Below, one piece after another: positions 1 through 8,656 of a stretch of DNA of 64,000 nt (its first letter is position 1; each line of letters begins with the position of its first letter). This DNA is from Fidelibacterota bacterium (GTDB lineage: Bacteria > Fidelibacterota > Marinisomatia > SCGC-AAA003-L08 > D37C17). Position numbers and translations under genes: made by a program. Location: positions 3,338-67,337 of the forward strand of contig PBEF01000002.1 of assembly GCA_002717625.1 (NCBI GenBank). The letters are read 5' to 3'. The notes beneath the pieces were generated by a model. The model was not told the DNA's origin, made no database searches, and saw only the letters and a list, made by a program, of their open reading frames with translations.

Positions 1-1
1 A

Positions 2-463
2 GCACCATATGATATAGGAGATCAATTGAGCTGTGAAGATATTCAGACTGAGTTTGACATTTGCTTCCCTTCTGATTGTGGTTCTATTAAATTAGCTGAT
101 TTTGAAGATAAGATTATATTTATTGTTTATGAGGAAGATTGGTGAGGCTTTTGTTATGATGATATTCCTCAGTTAGAGGAAGATATTATTCTGAATTATT
201 TAGATAATCCGAATATTGCAATTATTAATTTTTTATCTGATGGTCCTGGTGGGCGTAGTTGTGATATGTGGGGTAATAATGGAGATGATAGAGTTCCTAT
301 CATTGTAAATGATTATAATGAAAATCATACATTTGGTAATTGGTTTAATATTACTTATTCTTCTCCTTGGTATTTAATATTAGATGAAAACTTTATTTAT
401 CAGTTTAGAACACAAAGTGAACCAGAAGCAAAAGCTTTTTTAGAGGAAATGTTAACAGATTAA
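2..463 (+). CDS. Secreted thioredoxin-fold selenoprotein (5' partial, in-frame TGA = Sec)
   Basis: The reading frame is open from the window edge to TAA at 461-463 except for one TGA at 143-145. That TGA sits in the context D-W-TGA-G-F-C-Y, which is the thioredoxin WCGPC site with its first Cys replaced. Read through, the fragment is 153 residues: Sec48, Cys51, a further Cys87 in an S-C-D-x-W motif, and a cis-Pro-like SSPW site (Pro122) before a beta strand. It parallels the gene at 1817-3352 (PYDIGD against AYNVGE near the mature N-terminus, then WUGxCY, SCxxW, cis-Pro). Only the signal peptide and start therefore seem to be missing. There is no dockerin or sorting domain, so it is a stand-alone redox domain, probably extracytoplasmic. 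The reaction is unknown; a thiol-disulfide or peroxide reaction is inferred from the fold. A conventional annotation would wrongly start at 266. Confidence 0.82.
143..145 (+). other. Selenocysteine codon (recoded TGA) in UxxC motif
   Basis: This in-frame TGA replaces the first active-site Cys of a thioredoxin-like W-x-G-F-C motif. The paralogue at 2045-2047 has TGA at the homologous codon. Normal TGA stops elsewhere in the window argue against a genome-wide reassignment. Confidence 0.8.
162..186 (+). promoter_or_regulatory. Candidate bacterial SECIS hairpin
   Basis: TTCCTC (165-170) pairs perfectly with GAGGAA (176-181) around the loop AGTTA (171-175), which holds the GU expected in a bacterial SECIS apical loop. 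ATA (162-164) can extend the stem to 184-186 past a two-base bulge. The loop starts 25 bases after the TGA, inside the usual bacterial range and almost the same as in the second gene. It would bind SelB to direct Sec-tRNA insertion. Confidence 0.75.
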
Positions 464-493
464 TTTTAGAAGTTATTTAAACTAGGAGATAAA

Positions 494-1537
494 ATGAAAA
501 AAATATTTATGTTATTAGTAACACAGTCATTTGTATTATATGCTACTGAATGGCAAATTAATGCTGGTAATTTTTATTATAGCCCTTCTTTATTAGAAAT
601 AAATGCAGGAGATACTGTGGAGTGGATTAATGATGGAGGGTTCCATGATGTTAATGGAAATTATAGTACTTTTACTAATGAACTTTATGATAATCCTGAA
701 AATTTCTATGTAGGACCTCCAACTAATTCAAGTGTTATAGGTAGCTATACATTTAATGTGCCTGGTACTTATAATTATGATTGTTCTGTTGGTAGTCATG
801 CAGCAAATGGAATGGTTGGAGTGATTATTGTAATAGATTCTTCATCTGATATATCAGGTTGTATGGATCCAAATGCTATTACGTGTGATGATGAGATTGA
901 TCCATTATATTTTCCTGAGTGCAATACCTGTTCTGATGATAATCCATGTGAAAATTATTATAACTCTGATGCTACTATAGATAATGGTTTATGTATGTAT
1001 AATGATGTTCCTGATTCTGATGAAGTTACTATTACTTTAGAAAATGATGGTTTGATGATTGATTGGAGTGATTTTAGTCCTCCCGTTTCTGTTGATCAAT
1101 ATGTTTTGATGAGATGTGCTGATATTGATGGAGACAATGATAACGATGGAGAGTTTGAGTATGAAATGTGTGTAATGATTATTCCTCCTATGCCTTTATA
1201 TGAAGAAATGGATTTTATAGATGATTTTTCAGATACCGATGAATATGGTTTAGATGATATAGCAGCCATTAAGTATACATTGTCAATTGGATATCCAAAT
1301 AATAATTATTGGGGATCAGCTTTTGGTAATTATTATTATGAGCCAACTGAAGATGATGTCTTATTAGGTGATTTGAATTTCGATGGAATTATAAATGTTA
1401 TTGATGTTGTATCGATGGTTAATGGTATTCTTAGTGGTAATTTTGATTCTGAACAATTAGCTGTGGCTGATATGAATTCAGATGGAATTGTTAATGTTAT
1501 TGATATAGTCTCTTTAGTTAATTTTATTCTAGGATAG
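494..1537 (+). CDS. Secreted cupredoxin (type 1 copper) domain protein with C-terminal dockerin
   Basis: This 347-residue protein has a signal peptide (about 1-17) and a plastocyanin/azurin-like cupredoxin domain (about 18-113). The type 1 copper ligands are visible as His51 (FHDVNG), Cys97, His102 and Met107 (YDCSVGSH...GM). A short GCMDPNA Cys-rich repeat follows (about 121-168), then a beta-rich stretch of unknown type, then a dockerin-like pair of calcium loops (about 293-347; GDLNFDG and ADMNSDG, each followed by I-x-N-V-I-D). Cupredoxins transfer single electrons; the partner is unknown. The gene has a good Shine-Dalgarno (AGGAG) and starts 30 bases after the upstream selenoprotein. The context suggests an extracellular redox function together with the two Trx-like selenoproteins. 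Confidence 0.85.
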   Translation: MKKIFMLLVTQSFVLYATEWQINAGNFYYSPSLLEINAGDTVEWINDGGFHDVNGNYSTFTNELYDNPENFYVGPPTNSSVIGSYTFNVPGTYNYDCSVGSHAANGMVGVIIVIDSSSDISGCMDPNAITCDDEIDPLYFPECNTCSDDNPCENYYNSDATIDNGLCMYNDVPDSDEVTITLENDGLMIDWSDFSPPVSVDQYVLMRCADIDGDNDNDGEFEYEMCVMIIPPMPLYEEMDFIDDFSDTDEYGLDDIAAIKYTLSIGYPNNNYWGSAFGNYYYEPTEDDVLLGDLNFDGIINVIDVVSMVNGILSGNFDSEQLAVADMNSDGIVNVIDIVSLVNFILG

Positions 1538-1609
1538 AATTTAATAGTTATTTGTAGAGAGATATATTATTTTATGGTATATAATTTTTTAATAAAGGGG
1601 TAAGTAAAA

Positions 1610-1795
1610 ATGAAATGTGATATGGATATGAGTTGTAAAGATAAGATAGATTTAGTTTTAAAATTAGTTTTTGTAGGTGTTTTTACATGGGGAGTAATGA
1701 GTCTTGTGTGTTGTATGAAGTCTTGTGATACATCATCATCTTGTTGTAAAAATCAAACAACTGAAGCAGTAAAACCTTGCAGTTCAAAAAAATAA
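1610..1795 (+). CDS. Small cysteine-rich single-span membrane protein
   Basis: The product has 61 residues and I do not recognise the family. A hydrophobic segment (about 13-34) is flanked by a short charged N-terminus with Cys3 and Cys9 and by a hydrophilic tail with six more cysteines (34, 35, 39, 45, 46, 57) and a Lys-rich end. The start has a strong Shine-Dalgarno (AAAGGGG). The gene lies between the cupredoxin gene and the second selenoprotein gene, 21 bases upstream of the latter and apparently co-transcribed. Eight cysteines in 61 residues suggest metal binding or disulfide exchange, but that is inference only. Confidence 0.6.
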   Translation: MKCDMDMSCKDKIDLVLKLVFVGVFTWGVMSLVCCMKSCDTSSSCCKNQTTEAVKPCSSKK

Positions 1796-1816
1796 TTAAT
1801 TACAGGGGTAGTTATT

Positions 1817-3352
1817 ATGAAAAAAATATTATTATCATGTGTTGCGCTTAATTTTGTTTTTTGTGCATATAATGTTGGTGAAACAATTAGTTTGAGTGAT
1901 CAGCAATTAACACGAGAAGTTTGTTATAGTTCTGACTTAAATAGTGATTATGAAGTAGGTGATAGTTTTTCATTATACGATTTAAATGGTGCGTACAATG
2001 GAGGAACTTATCATGTTATGTTCTTTGATATGAGTGCTACTTGGTGAGGCCCTTGTTATACAAGCCAAACCGGTCCGGTTGGTTCTATTGACTACTATTT
2101 AGCTACATATCTAGATGATTATGAAACTTATGAAGACAACATAGCAACTTTTGCAGCATTAGCTGATCTTAATCAGCCTTATTCTTGTGAGGCGTGGGCA
2201 AGTCTTGCCCCTAATGGAGCAGGTGATATAGTCTCAGATGTGGGGTATGGAATGTTTAACTTATATAATAGCCAAAATGGCTTTCCTAGTTTTGCATTTG
2301 TTGATCATAATATGACTGTTTATCAAAAGAGTAATAGTGCTGGTACATATTCAACAAAACTTAGAATTCAAGAAATGCTTGATGCTTGTATCGCAGATGG
2401 ATTATGTGGATCTGTAGATATAGATAATGATGGTATTATAGATGGAGATAACTGCCCTAATGATTATAACCCTAATCAAGAAGATGGTGATAATGATGGA
2501 ATTGGTGATGCCTGTGATGATTGTCTTAATAATGTAGGTGATGTTAATGATGATATGACTATAGATATTTTAGATATCGTAACTACTGTTAATATTGTTT
2601 TAACTGGTGGTGTTAATTCTACAGATTTCACGGAGTGTCAAAAGACTGATGCAGATATGACAGGTGATGGAACTATTAATATTCTTGATGTTATTCAAAT
2701 CATTAATGCAGTTCTTGGTAATAATTTGAGTTTATCATTTGATTCATCTGTAAAATCAGAGTATGTTGAAATTGAAGCTACAAAGAAAAATGGAAATTTA
2801 TATTTAACTGTAGATTCAGAATATGCAGCAGGACTTCAAATAAATTTCAATGATTTTGTTTCTGATGTAAACTTAGTAGATAATAAAGGTTATTTAACTT
2901 TAGATAAAATTGATGGAAAGATTGATAGATGTGTTATTTATTCTCTTGAAAATAGAGAATTTGGTAATGATACTTTTACCATAGAAGTTGAAGGTGCAGC
3001 TAAATTAGATTGTAATAAAATTACGGCTGTAGCTGGAGATAGATTTGGAACAAATATGCAAGTTCGATTTACGGCTCCTGAAGTGCGTAATTTTGCAATT
3101 AATAGTTTGTATCCTAATCCATTTAATCCTATTACATCAATTGATTATAGTGTTGAAAAAGCAGGTGAATTACGTTTGTCTGTTTATAATATTTTAGGAC
3201 AAGAAGTTGCTGTTCTTTACAATGGATATCAAACTGAAGGAGAATCTTTTAGTGTACAATGGGATGCAGCATCATTTTCTTCTGGTGTTTATTTTGTGAA
3301 TATGGCAATGAATGGCCAGATTGAAACAATGAAAGCTGTAGTGGTTAAATAA
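1817..3352 (+). CDS. Secreted thioredoxin-like selenoprotein with TSP3 repeats, dockerin and T9SS-type sorting domain
   Basis: One reading frame runs from ATG 1817 (Shine-Dalgarno CAGGGG) to TAA 3350-3352, interrupted only by TGA at 2045-2047. Read as Sec, the product has 511 residues. It has a signal peptide (about 1-16), then a Trx-like domain with W76-U77-G78-P79-C80, Cys124 in S-C-E-A-W, and a cis-Pro-like FPSF (Pro157). Thrombospondin type 3-like D-rich calcium repeats follow (about 200-236; DNDG...DNCP), then a dockerin-like pair (about 240-301), a beta-rich spacer, and a C-terminal sorting domain starting at YPNPFNP (about 432-438). The layout predicts export and surface anchoring or release by a type IX-like route. 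A conventional caller would split it into a 76-residue and a 370-residue ORF; both parts are in the same frame. The substrate is unknown. Confidence 0.87.
2045..2047 (+). other. Selenocysteine codon (recoded TGA) in WUGPC motif
   Basis: TGA replaces the first Cys of the canonical thioredoxin WCGPC motif. The frame stays open for 434 further codons that encode recognisable domains, so this is neither a true stop nor a decayed gene. Confidence 0.86.
2065..2082 (+). promoter_or_regulatory. Candidate bacterial SECIS hairpin
   Basis: CCAA (2065-2068) pairs with TTGG (2079-2082). After a bulged A at 2069, CCG (2070-2072) pairs with CGG (2076-2078), leaving a GTC apical loop (2073-2075). GU in the loop, the bulge in the stem, and a distance of about 25 bases from the TGA fit a bacterial SECIS. 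They match the hairpin of the first selenoprotein gene in position although the sequences differ. Confidence 0.77.
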
Positions 3353-3376
3353 AAGTTTTTATTAATTAATTAGATT

Positions 3377-3412
3377 AAAAAGGGAGTATATATTTTATAT
3401 GCTCCCTTTTTT
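3377..3412 (+). terminator. Rho-independent terminator after the selenoprotein gene
   Basis: AAAAAGGGAG (3377-3386) pairs with CTCCCTTTTT (3402-3411). An inner ATAT/ATAT extension closes a short T-rich loop, and a T run follows. It ends the redox block and lies only six bases before the next start codon. Confidence 0.85.
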
Positions 3413-3417
3413 ATTAT

Positions 3418-4500
3418 ATGAAAAATAATTTCCAATATATAGTTGTAGGTGCAGGAATTGTTGGATTAGCTATATCTGAAATATTGAGTAGAAAGTCTAA
3501 TGGTAATATTTTAGTTATAGATAAAGAAAAAAAATTTGGTTTGCATACATCCAGTAGAAATAGTGAGGTTGTCCATTCAGGATTTTATTATCCCAAAGAT
3601 TCTTTAAAATCAAAACTCTGTGTAAAAGGTAATAAAATGATGTATGAATTTTGTGATAAGTATAATATTCCTTATAAAAAATGTGGTAAGTTGATAGTTG
3701 CAAATACTAAAGAAGAAATTTCTGTTTTAGATGATATTTTGTTATCATCATATAAAAATGGTGTTGAGGCTCAAATTATTTCAAAAAAAGATTCATTGAA
3801 AATTGAGCCAAATGTACGTTGCAAGAAGTCCTTATGGGTTCCATCAACAGGTATAGTTGATTCGCATTTAGTGATGTCTAAATTAGAGAATTTATCCTTA
3901 TCAAGAGATGTTTCCATATTATATAATTTAGAGTTAGATAGTATTCAAAAAATAGATAGTGGCTATAGCATTGATTTTGTTAATGATGATTCTATTATAA
4001 CAACAGATTGTATTATTAATTGTGCTGGTTTATGGGCTCATGAGATAGCAAATCAATTGCTTGAAAATAAATACGAAGTAGAGTATTATAAAGGAGATTA
4101 CTTTAAAACATCAGATATAAAAAACATCAACTCTCTTATTTATCCTGTCCCAAATAATTTATCATTAGGTATTCATGTTGTTATCAACTTAAATGGTGAA
4201 GTTTTATTTGGTCCTAATGTTTATAAGATTGATAGTGTGAGTTATCAGAATGATAGTAGATACAAAGAGACTTTTTTAAAAGAAGCAAATAAGCTTTTAG
4301 TAAATAATATAAAGGATATATATATTGATTATTCTGGAATACGTCCTAAAATAAAATATGATGGTAGACTGAATGATTTTATTATTAAAGAAGAAAAAAC
4401 ATTGAAGAATTTTTATAACCTAATAGGTATAGACTCCCCAGGATTAACATCTTCATTGGCAATTGCCGAATATGTATATGGCTTAATTCAGATTGATTGA
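3418..4500 (+). CDS. lhgO: FAD-dependent oxidoreductase, L-2-hydroxyglutarate oxidase family
   Basis: This 360-residue protein of the DAO superfamily begins with a Rossmann FAD motif (VVGAGIVGLA, about 9-18). The family signature TSSRNSEVVHSGFYY follows (about 45-59). In the family, these enzymes oxidise L-2-hydroxyglutarate to 2-oxoglutarate and pass electrons to the quinone pool; here the substrate is inferred from similarity. The protein is somewhat shorter than the E. coli enzyme. The start lies directly behind a strong terminator and has no Shine-Dalgarno, yet the FAD motif needs this start. The gene is convergent with the hydrolase gene at 4488-5309 and overlaps its end by 13 bases. Confidence 0.8.
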   Translation: MKNNFQYIVVGAGIVGLAISEILSRKSNGNILVIDKEKKFGLHTSSRNSEVVHSGFYYPKDSLKSKLCVKGNKMMYEFCDKYNIPYKKCGKLIVANTKEEISVLDDILLSSYKNGVEAQIISKKDSLKIEPNVRCKKSLWVPSTGIVDSHLVMSKLENLSLSRDVSILYNLELDSIQKIDSGYSIDFVNDDSIITTDCIINCAGLWAHEIANQLLENKYEVEYYKGDYFKTSDIKNINSLIYPVPNNLSLGIHVVINLNGEVLFGPNVYKIDSVSYQNDSRYKETFLKEANKLLVNNIKDIYIDYSGIRPKIKYDGRLNDFIIKEEKTLKNFYNLIGIDSPGLTSSLAIAEYVYGLIQID

Positions 4501-5309
4501 TTATCTATGAAAGATTTTATTATTTTAGATGTCTTTTCAGGATATTCTAAAGGGAATAGATGAGATGAATTTTTAATTGTAGTGAATTTAATATTAGAAT
4601 TATTTTTTTCTATTTTGTTTTGTGAGGAGTTTAAAAATGCATTGGACTCTTCTGCTCTAATAATCAAACAAGGTATTTTAATATTTTTTATATTTTTCCA
4701 TATAAACATATCTGCAAGAAGTCCTGTTTTGTAAATTTGATACTCCCAAGCTTTAGAGTAGTTGATAAATAATTGTTTATTTTTTTCTGAAGTGATTGAT
4801 CTGATATAAATTTTAAGATTTTTATCATTGATTTTAGAAAATACATGCTTTTTTCTATAAGAATTGAAGATTTCAGTGTAATTGTCATATGACATTTTGC
4901 GTTTTAGTGTTGATTTTATCCATGGATGGAATTGATTTTGAAAGCCTGTTAAAAATGCAATTTTCCATAGATAAATAATTCTAGGTACAAATAATGTAGG
5001 ATCTAAAAGGATAATTTTTGAGAAATATTTAGGGTCTGAAATTGCTGTTCTTAATATAATGTTCCCTCCAATTGAATGTCCTATGCCGATATATTTTTTT
5101 TGAGTATCTAAAGTACTTTTAAAATCATTGTGAAATAAATTCCAGTCTTTTAGTTCTAGAGGATTCATATCTTTTTTCCATAGAGGTCTTAGTAGATATT
5201 TTTCTAAATTATTATTGGTTTCTATATCTTGAAACAGAGGTTTATAGCTATCAGGAGGAAACCCATTAGCATGGATAAATATAATATTAGGATTATTAGT
5301 TTTTAACAT
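4488..5309 (-). CDS. Alpha/beta-fold hydrolase
   Basis: This 273-residue cytoplasmic protein begins with the usual beta strand and oxyanion region (FIHANGFPPDSY). The nucleophile elbow is G-H-S79-I-G-G, and a late His (SSHLFPLEYPE, about 250) completes a plausible catalytic triad. The substrate cannot be told. The gene is transcribed alone on the minus strand and meets lhgO tail to tail. Its upstream side faces tRNA-Arg. Confidence 0.75.
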   Translation of the reverse strand: MLKTNNPNIIFIHANGFPPDSYKPLFQDIETNNNLEKYLLRPLWKKDMNPLELKDWNLFHNDFKSTLDTQKKYIGIGHSIGGNIILRTAISDPKYFSKIILLDPTLFVPRIIYLWKIAFLTGFQNQFHPWIKSTLKRKMSYDNYTEIFNSYRKKHVFSKINDKNLKIYIRSITSEKNKQLFINYSKAWEYQIYKTGLLADMFIWKNIKNIKIPCLIIRAEESNAFLNSSQNKIEKNNSNIKFTTIKNSSHLFPLEYPEKTSKIIKSFIDNQSI

Positions 5310-8068: not shown

Positions 8069-8656
8069 ATGTCAAATTATCTTGTGCCTTTTTTTATATT
8101 AATATTTTTTACATCTTTATATGCATTTTTTTGGGGTGATAATGAAAAAATAGATGTAAAAGATTTTTCTAAATCTATTTATGATTATTCAGCTCAAAGT
8201 ATAGATGGAGACCCTATTTCTATTTCGAAATATAAAGGAAAAAAACTTCTAATTGTAAATGTAGCTTCACGTTGTGGCTATACTCCTCAGTATGAGGAAT
8301 TACAGTTGCTCTCAGAACAATATAAAGATGAAATTATAGTACTTGGTTTTCCTGCAAATGATTTTTTATGGCAAGAGCCTGCAAGTAATGATAAAATTAA
8401 GCAATTCTGTTCAACAAAATATAATGTTTCTTTTCCTATGTTTGAAAAAACATCAGTTAAAAAAAGTAAAGAACAGCATCCTATTTATACATGGCTGTCA
8501 ACTAAATCTTTAAATGGCTGGAATGATCAAGCTCCATCTTGGAATTTTTATAAATATCTAGTAGATGAGAATGGGAAACTTATTCAATATTATTCAGCGA
8601 CAATAAATCCTTTAAATGAAGAAATTTTAAAACATTTAAATGGTAAGGTTAAATAA
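8069..8656 (+). CDS. Exported or membrane-anchored glutathione peroxidase (Cys type)
   Basis: The protein has 195 residues. A hydrophobic N-terminus (about 4-22) precedes the GPx domain, with peroxidatic Cys69 in NVASRCGYTPQY. The GFPANDFLWQEP motif supplies the Gln and SWNFYKYLV the Trp, and a conserved Cys follows in KQFCSTKYNVSFP. GPx enzymes reduce lipid or hydrogen peroxide, usually with thioredoxin in bacteria. Cys and not Sec is used here, although the genome appears to use Sec in the Trx-like proteins at 1-3352. The gene has a clear Shine-Dalgarno (AGGAG) and overlaps the next start by one base. Confidence 0.9.
   Translation: MSNYLVPFFILIFFTSLYAFFWGDNEKIDVKDFSKSIYDYSAQSIDGDPISISKYKGKKLLIVNVASRCGYTPQYEELQLLSEQYKDEIIVLGFPANDFLWQEPASNDKIKQFCSTKYNVSFPMFEKTSVKKSKEQHPIYTWLSTKSLNGWNDQAPSWNFYKYLVDENGKLIQYYSATINPLNEEILKHLNGKVK

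Follow-up and report, generated by a model that had tools for sequence, protein, structure and literature searches.

A candidate extracytoplasmic selenol/thiol redox locus with an exchangeable copper or heme carrier domain in Neomarinimicrobiota

Neomarinimicrobiota (SAR406) are abundant and uncultured, and several described systems resemble the locus analysed here, a set of four genes that we name D, A, B and C in their order along the DNA. Etrx1 and Etrx2 of Streptococcus pneumoniae are, similar to C, extracytoplasmic surface proteins of the thioredoxin fold, and the fold search with C ranks Etrx2 (4hqz), a protein with a role in surface repair, near the top; unlike the D-A-B-C locus, they come without selenocysteine (Sec), without a copper or heme carrier and without an outer membrane. 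The Omp28-related selenoprotein NF045500 (GOS_C), a UxxC selenoprotein of marine metagenomes, shares with C both this motif and a thrombospondin-3/dockerin-like tail. The match of C is to that tail, at 57.6 bits against a cut-off of 200 and with the first two thirds of the model unmatched, so that the identification of C as Omp28_seleno was rejected; likewise, none of 10 related proteins scanned against the model reached 200 (best, 126.1). A Bacteroidota cluster (loci L144, L145 and L146, read by eye) combines TlpA, a DUF6029-like barrel and a T9SS thioredoxin, as does the family core described below, and differs in carrying Cys for Sec and in lacking, in the loci read, both a cupredoxin and a mini-protein. 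Finally, plastocyanin and cytochrome c6 are copper and heme carriers that substitute for one another at the same task, whereas the exchange reported here concerns one domain within a secreted dockerin protein, was seen once at the locus and involves no known partner.

Some of these elements appear in open papers: a 2026 review tabulates GOS_C as NF045500, with the motif UxxC, and gave no match to "Marinimicrob" (PMC13188914); thioredoxin-like selenoproteins are contained in marine metagenomes (PMC9402790); three SAR406 genomes are named in a table (PMC5029168); and DUF6029 resembles polysaccharide-export barrels (PMC9603273). Our searches of openly accessible papers found neither an account of the D-A-B-C gene set nor a description of what the TlpA–DUF6029–T9SS thioredoxin cluster does.

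The window, by which we mean the whole stretch of DNA analysed (64,000 nucleotides), corresponds to positions 3338-67337 of contig C2 of the genome G000, a member of Candidatus Neomarinimicrobiota that comprises 1.49 Mb in 23 contigs. Its first 3.4 kb hold the following features.

2-463, + strand: gene D, 3' half only; predicted Sec lipoprotein, AhpC/TSA-like, with an in-frame TGA at 143-145 (motif WUGFC)
165-181, + strand: SECIS-like hairpin of D, TTCCTC-AGTTA-GAGGAA, 19 nt 3' of the UGA (terminator-like in the scan output)
484-488, + strand: ribosome site AGGAG of A (read from the sequence)
494-1537, + strand: gene A, predicted secreted cupredoxin-dockerin, 347 aa (ORF and Pfam)
1610-1795, + strand: gene B, single-pass membrane protein, 61 aa, 8 Cys (ORF; membrane span judged by eye)
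1817-3352, + strand: gene C, predicted Sec thioredoxin-like protein, 511 aa, motif WUGPC, TGA at 2045-2047 (ORF, profiles and model)
2068-2080, + strand: SECIS-like hairpin of C, AACCG-GTC-CGGTT (hairpin search)
3377-3411, + strand: intrinsic terminator 3' of C (terminator search)

The layout agrees with the first-pass annotation, which had placed the A and B genes (494-1795) between those of the two Sec proteins and had suggested one transcript that ends at a terminator at 3377-3412. The genes are separated by 30 nt (D-A), 72 nt (A-B) and 21 nt (B-C), with a single terminator, 3' of C (the search found 4 terminator-like sites versus 1.3 expected), and the four are probably carried on one transcript. 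An Rfam scan of window positions 1-4600 returned nothing at E<=1.

The window begins inside gene D, whose full length (C2:2901-3800) encodes a 299-aa lipoprotein with a lipobox signal. An ambiguous base, N, stands at C2:3337, immediately 5' of the window; a scaffold gap was considered for this position, but the N sits within a codon of D and leaves the frame uninterrupted, which makes an ambiguous base more likely. Further upstream lies another A-B-C set (C2:32-2893), followed after 7 nt by the full-length D. Aligned over 2893 columns, this set and the one in the window show 6 differences, one in A and the others in the signal peptide of C, and the upstream copy reaches the contig end. A contig of G002, a genome of the same genus, likewise begins within a C-like tail that is identical to its own downstream C at 154 of 157 nt, which argues for a real duplication; near-identical repeats at contig ends are nonetheless a classic spot for misassembly, which argues against certainty. 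A genuine, young tandem duplication of A-B-C is thus likely, but not certain, as opposed to an assembly effect.

The reading of the UGA codons of C and D as Sec is sound at the level of sequence. Across the thioredoxin family to which C belongs, the column in question contains U or C within the motif W[U/C]xxC, with Cys paralogues aligned in the same column, and at least one TGA is present in 89 of 112 family matches and in none of the other 23 (counted by eye). The hairpins 3' of the UGA at 41 Sec sites are more stable than those of synonymous recodings (mean z -1.46); the mean z is -0.13 at 27 Cys sites, a control set that is not pure, as it includes TlpA-like and Bacteroidota proteins beside true paralogues. 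A GT in the loop occurs at 17/41 Sec sites versus 1/27 Cys sites. The SECIS-type signal belongs to the sites as a group, the C site alone being not significant (p 0.11 against its synonymous recodings). The same genome encodes SelB, at 330 bits over a cut-off of 242, and tRNA-Sec, at 65.8 bits over one of 47; because these two models score below their cut-offs in many genomes and controls, only matches above the cut-offs were used.

Both selenoprotein candidates are thioredoxin-like. D resembles AhpC-TSA at E 3.4e-4, below the cut-off of that model, and its orthologue in G020 scores 25.6 bits against a cut-off of 26. C itself has no match to Pfam thioredoxin, and a profile of 16 family sequences searched against the PDB relates its residues 1-216 to thiol-disulfide oxidoreductases (4k9z, E 1.8e-8). 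An AF2 model of C built from 14 sequences (pLDDT 72.6, pTM 0.72) retrieved peroxiredoxins, a ResA-type protein and Etrx2 with Foldseek (E 2e-5 to 4e-4, query TM about 0.4-0.5), with the active-site residues 77-81 poorly predicted and modelled with some of the lowest confidence in the chain. Taken with its [UC]xxC motif, this fold places C among the thioredoxin-fold oxidoreductases. C further carries a thrombospondin-3-like stretch, a dockerin (32.6 bits, cut-off 22.9) and a type IX sorting tail (41.4 bits versus 27), which, together with a type IX translocon SprA in the same genome (297 bits, cut-off 200), assigns it to T9SS cargo. With products that are lipoproteins, type IX-secreted or dockerin-bearing, the locus would act at the cell surface or otherwise outside the cytoplasm.

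The product of gene A begins with a signal peptide, as judged by eye, and continues with a cupredoxin domain (aa 19-113, nt 548-832), a Cys-rich middle region (aa ~122-290) and a dockerin (aa 291-346, nt 1364-1531). The matches to Copper-bind (PF00127; 34.2 bits, cut-off 21.2) and Dockerin_1 (PF00404; 38.8 bits, cut-off 22.9) exceed the Pfam cut-offs, and a profile of 6 A orthologues matches plastocyanin 1bxu at E 9.9e-10, while the score against the plastocyanin equivalog TIGR02656 (32.6) stays below the curated 87.85. An AF2 model of A made without an alignment has a pLDDT of 30.7. The complete type 1 copper site that had been claimed for A is borne out, with H51, C97, H102 and M107 all in place. 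In an alignment of related cupredoxin domains (23 rows, reduced to 21 distinct ones by removing the own copy of A and one domain seen via two overlapping loci), C97 and H102 are conserved in 21/21, H51 in 20/21 (the exception is a truncated row) and M107 in 20/21 (the exception has Q). A is predicted to bind type 1 copper, with a ligand spacing, C-x4-H-x4-M, that is found in rusticyanin and phytocyanins. The A of G002 (L071:1004-2479) carries a tandem pair of copper domains, and the fourth ligand of the leading one is Gln instead of Met, as in stellacyanin. Another cupredoxin-like stretch of the G000 genome (C4:38654-38854, L007) lies in a 152-aa frame that lacks the part with the first His.

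The gene order D-A-B-C recurs in relatives, so that the refuting condition named by the first-pass annotation, an order conserved in no relative, does not hold. It was found in 6 of 23 family genomes, our own included, from two genera: G000 and G002 of the own genus (g1, which consists of G000, G001 and G002) and all four genomes of a second genus (g7: G008, G013, G017 and G020). The set was not found in G001, which is 74% complete, and a cupredoxin match and a B match on the same contig occur in 0/16 of the remaining family genomes, several of which have short contigs, so that some absence may reflect missing sequence. One explanation of this pattern is that A and B form no functional unit with their neighbours: as common genes for surface proteins, they would have arrived by drift in a secreted dockerin/T9SS-rich locus and been retained by descent. 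The G000 genome holds 86 matches to A in all, most at the dockerin end (80-odd dockerin matches), A-like copper and PSCyt1 domains recur in many multi-domain proteins, and A-B adjacency is missing from 17/23 family genomes, all as expected under such drift. We consider it unlikely all the same, given that the order is kept in two genera despite an identity of A of only ~54% between them, that neighbouring g7 genes lie only a few bases apart (mostly 2-22 nt), and that the domain of A has been swapped for another redox domain and not for a non-redox one.

This swap is the strongest hint that A performs one-electron transfer and is not about copper as such. In G013, the gene at the position of A encodes a c-type cytochrome domain, PSCyt1 (29.3 bits, cut-off 22; CGGCH), ahead of the same middle region and dockerin; a search with A in this genome matched only aa 114-177, from the middle region, and no copper domain like that of A, and the G013 cytochrome domain in turn had no match in G000, G001, G002, G008, G017 or G020. 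As a rule, both type 1 copper and heme c carry single electrons at high potential. Among the 12 genomes that contain the middle region, it is accompanied by a cupredoxin in 6, by PSCyt1 in 5 and by neither in 1, and at other loci it is joined to PSCyt1 in four g5 genomes and to a cupredoxin in G009. The genome with neither domain, G003, led us to reject the middle region as an exceptionless marker of electron carriers. As the heme/copper exchange is a single event at the D-A-B-C locus, and many unrelated T9SS/dockerin proteins of these genomes have acquired cupredoxin and PSCyt1 domains by shuffling, the exchange could also be meaningless domain traffic.

Gene B is real, and its description as a 61-residue membrane protein with eight cysteines holds, with 8 Cys and one hydrophobic stretch. 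Among 5 orthologues, all 10 pairwise comparisons show a third-position excess and a dN/dS below 1 (range 0.08-0.69), which identifies B as coding. Homologues were detected in 22/150 relatives at E<=0.01, the row of the own genome included, and an NCBIfam search with B gave no match; B and its homologues form a widespread family of small membrane proteins without a name. In many genomes B lies away from any cupredoxin match, and elsewhere its homologues adjoin CspA-like cold-shock, TatA-like or sorbosone-dehydrogenase-like genes (by eye). Homologues without the extra N-terminal Cys occur in other genera (L081:3431-3598, L084:7430-7645 and L093:2150-2350). In G008 and G020, B and C are separated by the gene of a further short protein that is rich in Cys and carries a lipobox (L074:13391-13606 and L075:8356-8571).

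The properties of A and B together raise the alternative that the locus handles copper: A would bind or buffer copper at the surface, B would be a metallothionein-like thiol cluster in the membrane, and the Sec thioredoxins would keep the Cys ligands reduced. Type 1 ligands that are intact in nearly all relatives, the two copper domains in the A of G002 and the second Cys-rich lipoprotein after B in G008 and G020 all fit this scheme. Against it, G013 keeps the remaining locus with a cytochrome instead of the copper domain, and a copper pump, chaperone or sensor was not seen among the cluster genes read. A role of B in such handling is weakened by its homologues, which mostly have the other neighbours described above and in many genomes lie away from any cupredoxin match. 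Copper handling becomes less likely because heme can replace copper, and we regard it as rather improbable.

The g7 loci place the four genes in a wider setting. There, five genes stand 5' of the set, for a large T9SS protein, a protein of 632 aa that matches no Pfam model, a TlpA-like redoxin, a DUF6029 barrel and a further Sec thioredoxin. It is this left half, which does not include A and B, that forms the broadly conserved core. DUF6029 was detected in 97/150 relatives (a profile built from the family itself added two genomes) and thioredoxin matches in 48/150, and the two lie within 6 kb of each other in 29 of the 38 genomes that have both, a proximity that, set against the frequent absence of A-B adjacency, led us to discard the idea that a conserved system is centred on A-B. 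The conserved core consists of TlpA, the outer-membrane barrel DUF6029 and surface Sec/Cys thioredoxins, with A and B as accessory additions. The proposal that copper, thiol and selenium chemistry are grouped in one system therefore survives in part: the tight conserved set, Sec and an extracytoplasmic redox role fit it, while the core does without copper, A and B are mostly not adjacent across the family, B often occurs without a cupredoxin and the copper domain is replaceable.

A phylogeny built from 46 thioredoxin domains unites the C proteins of the window and of g7 with the last thioredoxin of G004 and a single g5 thioredoxin (100/98), and within this group C of G000 and G002 is closer to G004 than to g7. 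This grouping makes C part of an old array, beside which A-B was added, or from which it was lost in G004, or between whose lineages it was passed. At L076:6814-12290, L077:346-3766, L078:3970-8928 and L101:3649-7710, thioredoxin-like genes, most of which contain UGA, form tandem arrays of three to four; TlpA and DUF6029 adjoin those in L076, L078 and L101, and L077 begins inside its cluster. DUF6029 was found in 0/3 genomes of the window's own genus, though g7, which shares D-A-B-C, has it at the same locus. The DUF6029 proteins of the family have an invariant C-x4-C just before the last strand (9/9 aligned), which would face outward by general barrel topology. On a bolder reading, the periplasmic TlpA, the barrel with this Cys pair in its last outward loop, the secreted Sec thioredoxins and the grafted copper/heme carrier would constitute a trans-envelope selenol/thiol conduit that links surface thiols to respiratory or extracellular one-electron flow, an idea we put forward as a distinctly long shot.

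Our preferred reading is more limited. D-A-B-C would be a lineage-specific form of a redox locus of Neomarinimicrobiota and Bacteroidota that acts outside the cytoplasm, namely a thiol/selenol module with an added, interchangeable one-electron carrier (copper or heme), and we hold it at about even confidence. D and C would be thioredoxin-fold enzymes with Sec as the attacking residue of UxxC, and would most likely act on the outer side of the cell, either by exchanging thiols and disulfides or by reducing peroxides. A would be the dockerin-bearing one-electron carrier of the module, with type 1 copper or c-type heme as its carrier domain, and B, a small Cys-rich protein anchored in the membrane, may be a thiol or metal partner. 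The genes, their order, the four type 1 ligands, the thioredoxin fold, the Sec signals and the domain exchange are apparent at the sequence level; electron transfer via A, and coupling of A to the Sec proteins, we infer. It counts against such a module that the cluster has no known cofactor joining one-electron transfer to a selenol/thiol pair; the lack of a DUF6029 match in the own genus and the poorly predicted active site of the C model weigh on the same side. A glutathione-peroxidase-family gene at 8069-8656 (PF00255, E 1.8e-35; Cys form, with an N-terminal hydrophobic stretch) has counterparts, identified by eye, 3' of the G002 and g7 clusters as well as close to that of G009, and this conserved neighbour mildly favours peroxide defence.

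The same surface thioredoxins could instead serve oxidative folding, forming or reshuffling disulfides in Cys-rich secreted proteins while A passes electrons to respiration. Large Cys-rich secreted proteins are indeed present in the clusters, high-potential carriers are suited to electron removal, and in mitochondria the disulfide relay hands electrons to cytochrome c via a flavoprotein. Among the cluster genes read, however, no flavoprotein or quinone-linked oxidase of the DsbB/Erv type was seen, and the FAD protein at 3418-4500, which scores nearest L-2-hydroxyglutarate oxidase (below the cut-off of that model), has no signal peptide (by eye) and lies 3' of the terminator. We consider oxidative folding very unlikely. 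If the thiol/selenol module with its exchangeable carrier is real, Neomarinimicrobiota display selenium thioredoxin arrays extracellularly and one lineage ties them to a copper-or-heme carrier, which would provide a clear test case for the joining of one-electron carriers and thiol/selenol enzymes outside the cytoplasm, and would suggest which function to seek in DUF6029 barrels, which are uncharacterised.

The dockerins of A and C have a possible counterpart in the same genome, where one cohesin scores above the cut-off (C5:15549-15887, 30.5 bits versus 24.1, in a 2707-aa frame); cohesins were detected in 20/22 relatives searched. With 80-odd dockerin-type matches and a cohesin in one genome, a cellulosome-like surface scaffold outside the known cellulosome makers would be worth attention.
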